Shown here piece by piece: positions 3,363 through 30,615 of a stretch of DNA of 64,000 nt. The translations under genes and the position numbers were made by a program. The stretch comes from Aquificaceae bacterium. GTDB lineage: Bacteria; Aquificota; Aquificia; Aquificales; Aquificaceae. Location: contig JALSHV010000006.1 in the NCBI GenBank assembly GCA_026981975.1, positions 1 to 64,000 on the forward strand. Reading direction: 5' to 3'. The notes below the pieces were generated by a model. That model saw only the letters and a list, made by a program, of their open reading frames with translations. It was not told where the DNA came from and made no database searches. Numbering within the stretch: position 1 is the first letter of the stretch; each line of letters opens with the position of its first letter.

Positions 3363-4061
3363 ATGGTTAAGTTTAGAATATCTGAGGTTTTCAGAAACGG
3401 TTATTCTTATGATATTATAACGAAATACAAAGAAATACCTGTGAAGGTTCATCTTAAACTTAACTGGATTGACAACGAAGGTAGGCTTTTAGGTTTTGAT
3501 TGGGGAAGGACTCATCTCAAGCCCGCTTTCTCTACCTTAGATCCTGTTTACGTTAGAGTGGAAAAGGAAGAATACGCTCAAACACAGGTTTTCAGTAATT
3601 TGGGAAAGGAGTTGGTTCTTATGGTGGATAACTTCGTCGGTCCTCCGGAGTTTATAAAGAGAAGATCTGTCAGAGTAGAACCTGACGAACACAAGCCTGT
3701 AATGGTGGAAATTTTCCACGAAGAGGGAAAGTTGAAAGCTACTGTAGCTGATATCAGTGAATTAGGGATAGGATTAATTGTAGCTGTAAAAGAAAATGAG
3801 AACTTTGTGAGTATTCTCAAAGAAAGATTGAAAGCTTTGAAAAAAGAAGAGTGTATTGAGTATCATCTCAAGATATTTTTACCCTCTTGTGGTATTGCTC
3901 AAGGGAAGGGTAAGCTTAAAAATGTGATAAGCCTTGACAAGGACAGCCGGCTGAAACTTGGTTTTGAGATAAATTTTCCGCAAGGGGATCTCAACACAAT
4001 TAGAAGATACGTTATAAATCGCCAAAAGGAAATAATAAAATCTCTTAGGATAGTGAAATGA
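3363..4061 (+). CDS. PilZ-domain protein (probable c-di-GMP receptor)
   Basis: The protein has 232 residues. The N-terminal ~95 residues form a beta-rich YcgR-like region. The PilZ domain follows, with the c-di-GMP binding signature RRxxR (RRSVR, 100-104) and a D-I-S-x-x-G motif at 130-135, both intact. Binding to c-di-GMP is therefore likely; the downstream target cannot be read from sequence. The stop codon overlaps the start of the next gene (ATGA), so it is co-transcribed with the LolCE/LolD genes. A TATACT box about 15 bases upstream is a plausible -10 element. Confidence 0.8.
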   Translation: MVKFRISEVFRNGYSYDIITKYKEIPVKVHLKLNWIDNEGRLLGFDWGRTHLKPAFSTLDPVYVRVEKEEYAQTQVFSNLGKELVLMVDNFVGPPEFIKRRSVRVEPDEHKPVMVEIFHEEGKLKATVADISELGIGLIVAVKENENFVSILKERLKALKKEECIEYHLKIFLPSCGIAQGKGKLKNVISLDKDSRLKLGFEINFPQGDLNTIRRYVINRQKEIIKSLRIVK

Positions 4062-28282: not shown

Positions 28283-29023
28283 TTAAATTTTAACACTGGT
28301 GAGAATTTCCTTCAGCTTAAGGCAGTTATACGGTGCGGCAGCATCGTAATCGTTATTAAAGTAAACGTAAATTCTCAAAGCTCCTAATTTTTTTAAACGT
28401 GAAGCCAATTGATAAAGTTCCTCTTCTGTGTAGTAATACCTATACCACTTGTTCTTACCGTGCATTCTGATATAAAGCACTTCTGAAGTCTTTACAATAT
28501 CTTCGGGAAGTCCGGGAGCGCTTACAGAACAAAAAGTTACATTGGTTTCCGCTAAGGTTTTATAAACTTCTTCCCTCCACCAGTTAGGATTTCTGAACTC
28601 AAAAACATTTGTAAAATCAGTGTTTATCTGTTTTATAAGTCTGTTTAAATTTTCCTCAGAATACCTGTAAGAGGGAGGAAATTGAAAGAGAAAGGCACCC
28701 AGTTTATCACCGAGACAAGTTGCTACCGTTTCGTAAAAGTTTTTTAAAAGTTCTTCTGTTTCTGTAAATTTTCTGAGATGTGTTATGATCCTGTTTACTT
28801 TAACGGAAAAAACAAATCCCTGTGGAGTATTCCTATAGAATCTTTTCAAGTTTTCTTTGGTGGGAAATTTGTAGAAAGTTGAGTTGATTTCCACTGTATT
28901 GAAATACCTACAGTAATAAGACAGCCAATCCGAGGGTTTAATATCCTCAGGGTAAAACTTCCCCTTCCAATCTCTGTAAAAGAATCCACTGCAACCGAGC
29001 AGGTATTTATTATCCTCCCGCAA
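28283..29023 (-). CDS. DUF72 (YecE-like) TIM-barrel protein
   Basis: The 246-residue protein has the DUF72 hallmarks: GCSGFFYRDWKGKFYP at the N-terminus, VEINSTFYKFP, FVFSVKVNRIITH, LGAFLFQFPPS, VFEFRNPNWW and the C-terminal VYFNNDYDAAAPYNCLKL. Function is unknown. The start overlaps the sulfur-carrier gene by 14 nt. Confidence 0.88.
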   Translation of the reverse strand: MREDNKYLLGCSGFFYRDWKGKFYPEDIKPSDWLSYYCRYFNTVEINSTFYKFPTKENLKRFYRNTPQGFVFSVKVNRIITHLRKFTETEELLKNFYETVATCLGDKLGAFLFQFPPSYRYSEENLNRLIKQINTDFTNVFEFRNPNWWREEVYKTLAETNVTFCSVSAPGLPEDIVKTSEVLYIRMHGKNKWYRYYYTEEELYQLASRLKKLGALRIYVYFNNDYDAAAPYNCLKLKEILTSVKI

Positions 29024-29285
29024 TTGCCGGAACTATGGAGAGAACATCACCGTCTTTAAGTTCCGTTTCTGTTCCTTTAAGGAATCTTATATCCTCGTCA
29101 TTCAGATACAAGTTTACGAAGCGCCTTACTTCTCCTTTATCGTCTAGAATGCGCTCTTTAAAACCCGGATACATCTCTTCTAATTTCTCTATAGCTTCTC
29201 TTACGGTGGAAGCGTTTACCTCTATTTCCCCTTGTCCGTCTGTTAATCTCCTCAGAGGTGTGGGAACTCTTACAGTTATAGCCAT
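29010..29285 (-). CDS. ubiquitin-like sulfur carrier (ThiS/MoaD/CysO family)
   Basis: The 91-residue beta-grasp protein ends in Gly-Gly (VPAIAGG), the terminus that is adenylated and thiocarboxylated by E1-like enzymes. Segments TPLRRLTDGQ, RRFVNLYLNDEDIRFL and LKDGDVLSIVPAIAGG resemble the CysO-like subgroup rather than canonical MoaD. The ttuA-like thiolase gene lies two genes upstream, so it may be the TtuB-type sulfur donor for tRNA thiolation, though molybdopterin or cysteine synthesis are alternatives. A structured element occupies the leader. Confidence 0.8.
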   Translation of the reverse strand: MAITVRVPTPLRRLTDGQGEIEVNASTVREAIEKLEEMYPGFKERILDDKGEVRRFVNLYLNDEDIRFLKGTETELKDGDVLSIVPAIAGG

Positions 29286-29302
29286 ACGCTAACCTAATCT
29301 TA

Positions 29303-29397
29303 ACCGGAGTTTTTAACTGTCCACTCCGGTGCCGGGCTATTTATACCGCGCCTTTTTGGGGTGTCCATGAACCCGGCAGGCGCCATTTGAACACCCC
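29303..29397 (-). ncRNA. structured intergenic RNA candidate between rplU and the sulfur-carrier gene
   Basis: This GC-rich stretch lies in an otherwise AT-rich genome. On the minus strand, from 5' to 3': GGGGTGTTC (29397-29389) pairs with GGACACCCC (29366-29358), 9 bp; the intervening loop holds GGCGCC (29384-29379) and TGCCGGG (29378-29372); downstream GGCGC (29352-29348) can pair with GCGCC, and CCCGGCA (29336-29330) pairs with TGCCGGG, 7 bp. The first and third helices interleave, giving an H-type pseudoknot. An 8-bp hairpin ACCGGAGT/ACTCCGGT (29330-29303) follows. No U-tract follows. It does not match any riboswitch consensus that I recall. Confidence 0.45.
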
Positions 29398-29400
29398 TTT

Positions 29401-29697
29401 TTAAGGTTTTATTTCTTTAATCAACAGTTCCGTGTATAGTTGTCTGTGTCCTTTCCATCTTTTGTAGTTTTTCTTAGGCTTATATTTAAATACGGTAAGC
29501 TTTTTCCCCTTACCGTGAGCCACTACTTCTGCTATCACTTTACCAGTGTTAAATTCCAAACTGCCGTCTTCTCTCTTCAGGAGAAGAGGTTTGAACTCAA
29601 CAGTGCTTCCTACGTCAGTGTCTAATTTTTCTACTCTTAGTTTCAAACCCGGTTCTACTCTATACTGCTTGCCTCCTGTTTTTATAACTGCATACAT
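29401..29697 (-). CDS. rplU: ribosomal protein L21
   Basis: The 98-residue protein matches bL21 (MYAVIKTGGKQYRVEPG, FKYKPKKNYKRWKGHRQLYTEL). It binds 23S rRNA near L20. A Shine-Dalgarno AAAGGGGGT lies about 7 bases before ATG. It is separated from rpmA (at 39.7 kb) although the two are usually adjacent in bacteria. Confidence 0.97.
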   Translation of the reverse strand: MYAVIKTGGKQYRVEPGLKLRVEKLDTDVGSTVEFKPLLLKREDGSLEFNTGKVIAEVVAHGKGKKLTVFKYKPKKNYKRWKGHRQLYTELLIKEIKP

Positions 29698-29724: not shown

Positions 29725-30615
29725 CTATCTTACAGTAATTTCCTTTAATCTGCAAAAAGAACATACATCTGTAGGGCTGGGTTCTCCGCATATTTTACAC
29801 TTTTTTAAATCTGTAGTATCGGTTTGATTGAATTTCGGCAGGATTTTTCTTATATACTCAAGATAAAATCTGAGTTTAGTGCCGGGGAATTTTTCTTCTA
29901 TCCTGTTCAGTAGTTCTTTATAGAAAACAGTAGAAGCGTCTTTTGAAAAAGGACACTCTTCTTCAATAAAATCTATACCGTTCAGCAGAGCGTAAAGAGC
30001 TGTCTCCTTTTCTGTAAACTTACAAAAAGGTTTTACTTTTTTAACAAATCCCTTTTCCTCTTCAAGAACAGGTGATTTCCTTCCCAAATACTTCAGATTC
30101 CAGTTTAAAACATTGGACAGCAGTGAGGAAGTTTCATCGTCAAGATTGTGACCTGTGGCAACCACACTGTAACCTTTCTCCCGGGCAAATTTGTTGAAAT
30201 TATACCTTTTAACTAGTCCGCAAATGGAACACGCTTCTCTTACAGTTTTTTCTTGTAATTCCGGAATTCCTGCCAATTCTTTACTAAGATCCACTACAAA
30301 AAGTTCCGCTTTTAGTCTGAGGGATAGATCTCTACTCTTTTGTAGTGATTTTTCCGAATACTCCCCTATACCTAGGTTTATGTGAAGTGCATCTGCTCTG
30401 TATCCTAATTTACACAGTAGATACCAAAGAGCTAAGCTGTCCTTTCCACCAGAAACCGCTACTAAGATTTTGTCTTTGTGAGAAAACATTCTGAATTCTT
30501 TAAGGGTTCTTTTCGTATAGCGTTCAAACCAGTTGATAAAATCCTTTCCGCAAAGAGCTAATCTGTGATGGGGCATATAAATTACAGGTTTTTTTCTGCA
30601 AATTCTACACTTCAC
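29725..30615 (-). CDS. ttuA: TtuA-like tRNA 2-thiolation enzyme
   Basis: The 296-residue ATP-pyrophosphatase has an N-terminal zinc finger (CRIC ... LCGKDF), the PP-loop SGGKDSLALW, a catalytic/cluster cysteine in ACSICG, GHNLDDET, and a C-terminal zinc finger (CKICGEPSPTDVCSFC). This two-finger layout is that of TtuA/Ncs6 rather than TtcA or TilS. TtuA thiolates U54 of tRNA for heat stability, using the ubiquitin-like carrier TtuB. A GG-ending carrier is encoded two genes downstream. Its start overlaps the esterase-like gene by 4 nt. Confidence 0.83.
   Translation of the reverse strand: MKCRICRKKPVIYMPHHRLALCGKDFINWFERYTKRTLKEFRMFSHKDKILVAVSGGKDSLALWYLLCKLGYRADALHINLGIGEYSEKSLQKSRDLSLRLKAELFVVDLSKELAGIPELQEKTVREACSICGLVKRYNFNKFAREKGYSVVATGHNLDDETSSLLSNVLNWNLKYLGRKSPVLEEEKGFVKKVKPFCKFTEKETALYALLNGIDFIEEECPFSKDASTVFYKELLNRIEEKFPGTKLRFYLEYIRKILPKFNQTDTTDLKKCKICGEPSPTDVCSFCRLKEITVR

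Follow-up and report, generated by a model that had tools for sequence, protein, structure and literature searches.

The element between rplU and a sulfur-carrier gene

Why does a GC-rich, multiply self-complementary sequence lie between a ribosomal protein gene and the gene for a small sulfur carrier? The window analysed is a 64,000-nt stretch of an Aquificaceae bacterium (GenBank assembly GCA_026981975.1, contig JALSHV010000006.1, positions 1 to 64,000). Its first-pass annotation had described a 9-bp helix, an interleaved 7-bp helix, a 5-bp complementarity, and an 8-bp hairpin ending 17 nt before an ATG. All of these were recovered at the same positions, together with the two flanking genes, whose identities were checked against the NCBIfam profiles. 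In the 5' to 3' order of the transcript, the features are:

29401-29697, minus: upstream gene rplU (L21), TIGR00061
29389-29397, minus: P1, 5' strand GGGGTGTTC, 9 bp with 29358-29366
29379-29383, minus: P2, 5' strand GCGCC, 5 bp with 29348-29352
29371-29377, minus: P3, 5' strand GCCGGGT, 7 bp with 29331-29337, interleaved
29358-29366, minus: P1, 3' strand GGACACCCC, pairing with 29389-29397
29348-29352, minus: P2, 3' strand GGCGC, pairing with 29379-29383
29338-29347, minus: conserved linker GGTATAAATA between P2' and P3', UAYAARUA in most of 171 copies
29331-29337, minus: P3, 3' strand GCCCGGC, pairing with 29371-29377
29303-29330, minus: P4 hairpin, ACCGGAGT...ACTCCGGT
29286-29302, minus: 17-nt ribosome-binding region before the MoaD-like start, AGG 9-11 nt from the ATG
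29010-29285, minus: downstream gene, MoaD/SAMP1-like small sulfur carrier (NF041918 with 66 bits and TIGR01687 with 54.8 bits, each exceeding its cut-off)

The three helices P1 to P3 form a 68-nt core at 29330-29397 (minus strand), which matches the covariance model with 88.7 bits (E = 1.6e-22). The first base of the core lies 3 nt past the rplU stop codon. In near-identical solo copies, which are not borne by a transposon, the shared sequence ends at P1 on the left and no more than about 5 nt beyond the core on the right. P4 pairs 29323-29330 with 29303-29310 over 8 bp, which leaves 17 nt between the hairpin and the ATG at 29285. The AGG upstream of this ATG is a candidate weak Shine-Dalgarno sequence. 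The reading that we favour, with a probability of roughly 0.4, is that the element is a cis-acting leader, probably exapted, for mRNA stability or start-site access in thermophiles.

Several minor features of the locus were also recorded. P3 pairs likewise in the register TGCCGGG/CCCGGCA. The nested-only fold of the minus strand has z = -2.9. In the nested MFE structure of 29286-29410 (minus strand), AACCU just 5' of P1 pairs with AGGUU in the ribosome-binding region. The best score of the sulfur-carrier gene (29010-29285) is to the SAMP1-like ubiquitin-like small modifiers (NF041918), and a TtcA/TtuA-like ORF (29725-30615, named by eye) neighbours L21 and the MoaD-like gene.

Conserved fold and covariation

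The covariance model comprised 32 distinct copies with P1 as its sole modelled helix, and the alignment was fit without the use of P2 and P3. The strands follow the order P1-P2-P3-P1'-P2'-P3' (ABCABC, a "pseudotrefoil"), in which each helix crosses both others. In the 32 copies, 98.4% of the pair cells are standard. In 77 distinct copies the value is 99.1%, against 79.5 ± 0.6% on shuffling (0 of 500 shuffles). The same 77 copies contain 256 double-changed cells, compared with 49.8 ± 6.3 in the shuffles, a control that ignores relatedness, and 33-57 with the registers slid by 1-3 columns, a control that takes it into account. All 8 modelled pairs of P1 have changed on both sides, with 98.3% of the cells paired; its sequence is entirely different from genus to genus, with the pairing preserved. 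In P2 every cell is paired (100%), three pairs have changed on both sides, and the outer pair is C-G in 60 copies and G-C in 17. P3 is paired in 99.4% of its cells, with double changes at five pairs. Among the 53 copies scored from the genome of the window and from G058, which we take to be Thermocrinis albus, P2 is complete (5/5) in 50 and P3 (7/7) in 52.

Thus, the compensatory changes that could be looked for in related genomes are present in all three core helices. The 5-bp complementarity had been read as a rival of the 7-bp helix; instead, it is a conserved third helix, as the two covary alike and nearly all copies retain them whole. The mutually exclusive switch proposed on that basis is not supported in that form: P2 and P3 are each conserved, and the ABCABC order would let them form at the same time. 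We regard the conserved RNA fold itself as close to certain. A simple repeat with no RNA function is countered by the orientation bias of the copies and by the covariation.

Outside the helices, the base before P2 also varies together with the second base of the linker (A.A in 82, G.G in 56, G.U in 12, and G.A in 12 of 171 copies). These non-Watson-Crick combinations suggest a tertiary contact beside P2. Most solo copies have P4 at the same position; the stem is about 5-14 bp long, and its sequences are unrelated between copies. The most divergent copy of the genome of the window (L065, contig C13, 70436-70502; 29 bits) has its P2 helix replaced by GCGGG/CCCGC, and its position relative to a gene is less clear.

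The window and nine other loci matched no Rfam 15 family at the gathering thresholds of the covariance models, RAGATH-18, HMP-PP, Moco, fluoride, and the self-cleaving ribozymes included. Together with the strong compensatory changes, this agrees with the first-pass view of a pseudoknotted RNA outside the fluoride, ZTP, SAM-II, and Moco classes. The family is new to Rfam, and its three-way interleaved fold is rare: a survey of ABCABC pseudoknots counted 51 such sequences, against 1688 with a simple ABAB knot (PMC3390330). The strand order is the same as in those pseudotrefoils; this is a topological class only, and homology is not implied.

Distribution among genomes

A DNA search of the genome of the window found about 16 copies of the ~70 nt, and the covariance model found 19 dispersed copies. 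Matches to the model were identified in 86 of 136 Aquificota genomes, in a sample that includes several draft MAGs, and in 23 of 30 genera. The number of copies per genome is 35 in T. albus (1,500,577 bp), 7 in G036 (presumably Hydrogenobacter thermophilus), 10 in G101 (presumably Sulfurihydrogenibium azorense), and 20 in G105. The model found no copy in G060, although it belongs to the same genus as T. albus. Since whole sets of copies are missing in sister genomes, the module must be dispensable for its genes.

When one genome for each bacterial and archaeal species was scanned with a sequence pattern, 58 stretches matched, all from Aquificota except those in Bacterium HR19 and in a Thermodesulfobacteriaceae MAG. 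A second model was then applied to 297 genomes of the phylum of this MAG, and it detected copies in the MAG and in about a dozen others (E < 1e-10). The copies inspected in the second phylum are mostly solo leaders, and their target genes are again unrelated. Two ORFs there, one citramalate/isopropylmalate-synthase-like and the other phosphomannomutase-like (both named by eye), are preceded by solo leaders in more than one genome (L340/L346 and L348/L351). A phage origin was also considered and rejected: the lone contig of a viral collection that matches the loose pattern (L388, IMGVR_UViG_3300022514_000030, about 3880-3927) holds a transposon-borne copy, in which the P0 loop and the terminal CCAGG described below are present.

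No description of the element was found in the text of the Aquificales ncRNA paper (PMC4227106). The same holds for the text of a 26-genome survey that took in Aquificae and Thermodesulfobacteria, the supplements of which may hold it as an unnamed candidate (PMC8632094).

Position and target genes

The 172 unique copies comprise 119 solo (type B) and 53 transposon-borne (type A) copies. Most copies are in sense orientation, with a start codon about 40 nt downstream. A sense ORF of at least 40 aa begins 15-60 nt after the core in 110 of the 119 solo copies and in 46 of the 53 transposon-borne copies. Among 118 solo copies, 25 have an exact TATAAT whose end is 4-9 nt upstream of the first core base (peak at 6), and among 48 transposon-borne copies none does; at other distances from solo cores it is found as scattered single occurrences. 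Therefore, the RNA should start at P1 in about one fifth of the solo copies. Many other solo copies lie directly behind an upstream stop codon, like that of the window. The fold, its covariation, its dispersal, and its fixed sense position before start codons were all computed directly.

The target genes are functionally unrelated and rich in growth genes. They include those of the ribosomal proteins S11, S13, S14, S18, S20, S21, L13, L25, L27, and L32, and also rpoA, rho, infC, tsf, fusA, hfq, ftsH, acpP, ppa, ftsZ, tatA, grpE, and others (a sample was confirmed by NCBIfam, the remainder being named by eye from sequence). This functional mixture speaks for a generic role and against one specific to a metabolite. 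A metabolite riboswitch or regulon was rejected, as the genes share no pathway. A ribosomal-protein binding site, as proposed in the first pass, is not supported for L21, because the same element heads dozens of unrelated genes; a ribosomal-protein autoregulatory leader was likewise rejected, as the element lies 3' of rplU here. An attenuator between rplU and the downstream genes had also been proposed. P4 is followed by TAAGATTAGG rather than a U-run, with no terminator-like site there, and a transcription attenuator or intrinsic terminator was accordingly discarded.

A regulatory leader of another kind is a possible, though unlikely, alternative. The core would be a small-molecule aptamer or would be bound by a global RNA-binding protein, and it would gate the ribosome-binding region by its folding. 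The near-invariant linker and P2, with the covarying non-Watson-Crick contact, resemble a binding pocket; many targets act in translation and growth; and hfq carries the element in three genera. However, the targets have no common pathway, those of the second phylum are again unrelated, and no conserved terminator or pairing that sequesters the ribosome-binding site was found. The mixed gene functions and the missing terminator favour a general role, exerted at the 5' end of the mRNA or at the start site. The near-invariance of P2 and the linker is more than a mere stabiliser would need, which hints at a specific partner.

Transposon-borne copies

In about 50 copies (type A), conserved DNA extends upstream of P1. 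Where enough sequence is available, this DNA contains the 3' ends of tnpB genes (TIGR01765, TIGR01766), and the tnpB ORF runs through the core. In one complete locus an IS607 TnpA precedes tnpB (NF033518, 202 bits). A stem-loop 5' of P1 (P0) has the apex CCUGG or CUUGG, which is complementary to CCAGG just before the downstream gene. The same pseudoknot, between an apical loop and guide-flanking nucleotides, has been reported for TnpB reRNAs (PMC10711439; PMC11061315). Given the overlap with the tnpB 3' end and this loop-to-guide-flank pseudoknot, both found in the type A copies, these copies sit in the omegaRNA position; TnpB binding and guided cleavage are putative. The number of such pairings is partly circular, since the split into types A and B used the P0/CCAGG motif, but two pairings do not depend on that definition, namely CTTGG/CCAAG and, in L263, the swapped CCAGG/CCTGG. 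In the window, the AACCU/AGGUU pairing may echo the loop-CCAGG pairing of the transposon copies.

The core is modular, as two sister omegaRNA regions have a plain hairpin where it would sit. One (L278, G053, contig C7, 87800-90300) has no pseudotrefoil and carries a GGCAAG/CTTGCC hairpin in its place; in the other (L263, G060, contig C1, 903000-905400), also without it, the sides of the guide-flank pseudoknot are swapped (CCAGG/CCTGG). These natural core-free relatives show what the core contributes to the guide RNA. A separate locus (L237, G088, contig C2, 1718-3870) encodes an IS607 TnpA and a TnpB-related protein of about 540 aa with no clear zinc ribbon, which falls below the NCBI cut-off for guided TnpB and near Cas12f2; its ORF spans the whole guide-RNA scaffold.

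The reported IS607 omegaRNAs of ISXfa1 (PMC10711439) and ISFba1 (PMC11061315) resemble type A in their location at the tnpB 3' end, their overlap with the ORF, and the loop/guide-flank pseudoknot. However, the pseudotrefoil is an additional module that some sister omegaRNAs lack, and it has no RAGATH-18 match, while the ISFba1 RNA is RAGATH-18-derived (PMC11061315). The solo copies also differ from these RNAs in having neither tnpB nor the P0 loop, and no guide role in the genome of the window.

Solo copies without TnpB

The proteins of the genome of the window have no TIGR01766 match, and the sole match to the Aquificota TnpB is to a translated element. The core pairing is intact in this genome. 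In T. albus only TnpB of a different type is present, yet there are 35 copies. At the window copy the upstream gene is rplU rather than a tnpB 3' end, and the P0 stem-loop, the CCAGG end, and the loop-to-guide-flank pairing were not found. A TnpB guide role was therefore rejected for this copy, its genome having no detectable TnpB.

The DNA outside the core was compared between similar copies. For T. albus cores at least 93% identical, identity falls to background immediately outside the core. The drop occurs at P1 and about 5 nt past the core, in 28 pairs from T. albus and 8 pairs from the genome of the window. Because identity is confined to the core, what is selected or converted is the RNA core itself. 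At the DNA level, an IS607/TnpB-derived MITE was rejected, as homologous retained ends are absent and homology stops at the RNA core.

Several genes carry the element in more than one genome. The rpsD-rpoA gap is short in most genomes, with GGAGG at or near the stop codon; in T. albus the element follows immediately after this original GGAGG (loci located with an approximate RpoA query, 87% identical to the T. albus protein). Three genomes of one family (f3), from two genera, have an element at this position too, with P1 sequences unrelated but compensated, and in one of the three (G084) TnpB was not detected. The acpP leader carries the element in 5 of 5 genomes of one genus (g7), where the core is conserved and the distance to the -10 box varies. 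In most related genomes moaD lies behind another gene with an ordinary ribosome-binding site; it has the element in two genomes of altered context, those of the window and of G028 (relocated gene). Recurrence between genera may include independent insertions, with at least two events clearly at rpoA. Retention without detectable TnpB, the module inside tnpB 3' ends, and recurrence at the same genes across genera are direct results of these comparisons.

The solo copies might instead be functionless or selfish debris, namely right ends or non-autonomous derivatives of IS607/TnpB elements kept by recent spread or gene conversion. Insertion at the GG of a Shine-Dalgarno sequence would account for their position, as the rpoA element of T. 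albus illustrates. One known IS607 TnpB uses 5'-AGGAG as its TAM (PMC11061315), and by analogy such a TAM could be the reason for insertion at Shine-Dalgarno sequences in Aquificota. The same core within tnpB 3' ends, the patchy distribution, and the resemblance of some solo P4 and 3' ends to the transposon right end AACCAGG fit this explanation as well. However, the boundary of the solo copies is exactly P1, in many cases at the predicted transcription start, and homology is absent beyond the core. Compensatory changes keep the pairing in TnpB-free genomes, and orthologous copies last across genera. We consider debris quite unlikely.

Proposed function as an mRNA leader

The cis-acting leader is the best reading because the fold is conserved in this position where no TnpB remains. 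The window sequence would be the RNA leader of the MoaD-like gene, consisting of the triple pseudoknot, the hairpin, and the ribosome-binding region. It would belong to an undescribed family of leaders whose module recurs in the omegaRNA, the guide-RNA scaffold at the right end of IS607-type TnpB transposons, and was probably exapted from it. The solo copies are proposed to act independently of TnpB, as a compact and heat-stable module at the mRNA 5' end. A -10 box, where there is one, would set the first transcribed base at or near P1, with the 5' end buried in the knot; copies with no -10 box of their own would part the upstream cistron from the ribosome-binding site that follows. Most probably, the downstream mRNA would be shielded from 5'-end attack and the start site would stay accessible, so that expression is raised or steadied. 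The probability stated for the favoured reading applies to this mechanism as a whole.

The solo leaders may derive from the right ends of transposons; alternatively, the leader may have been taken up by transposons. The P4 and AACCAGG similarities of some solo copies favour the former, and the core-free omegaRNAs fit the latter. More specifically, a pseudotrefoil module derived from or captured by TnpB transposons might serve thermophilic bacteria as a general, protein-independent 5' 'cap' of growth-gene mRNAs, homogenised throughout the genome by core-limited gene conversion. This version is tentative and, taken whole, unlikely; if true, one RNA domain serves both selfish guide RNAs and the host expression machinery.

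Processive antitermination or polarity relief was considered as another general role, in which the RNA would bind RNA polymerase and let long operons be read through. Many T. albus copies are operon-internal, beside rpoA, rpsK, rho, and other operon genes. However, the window and nine other loci match no known antiterminator RNA family, no downstream terminators were seen, and a number of targets stand alone as genes with a promoter of their own, which makes this role improbable. A self-cleaving ribozyme that frees the downstream cistron from a polycistronic RNA, in line with the ribozyme-like fold of the first-pass annotation, would suit the multiply pseudoknotted core, its near-invariant single-stranded linker, and the many operon-internal copies, but it is highly improbable, as Rfam ribozymes are unmatched at the window and nine other loci, copies beginning at the transcription start would gain nothing by 5' cleavage, and the module is kept within omegaRNA regions.

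Relation to known RNAs

The favoured cis-acting leader can be compared with known systems. The HMP-PP/thiS motif (PMC6478431) and the Moco, fluoride, ZTP, and SAM-II riboswitches are likewise compact, partly pseudoknotted leaders, and the target gene in the window encodes a ThiS/MoaD-fold carrier. Unlike these, the element has no Rfam match, serves many pathways, and contains no terminator-embedded aptamer. The TldR RNA-guided transcription factors, which are exapted TnpB proteins, are likewise a component of TnpB transposons reused by host or phage (mentioned in PMC13418256). TldR reuses the protein half with a guide RNA, whereas the element would reuse the RNA scaffold module alone, in cis.

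The link between gene leaders and TnpB guide RNAs may thus be a case in which an RNA-guided nuclease system had its RNA half exapted, which would complement the known exaptation of the protein half. The element looks like a reusable RNA module common to gene leaders and mobile elements. It is present in most of the Aquificota genomes searched, and it offers a direct route to testing how hyperthermophiles keep their mRNA 5' ends and start sites functional.
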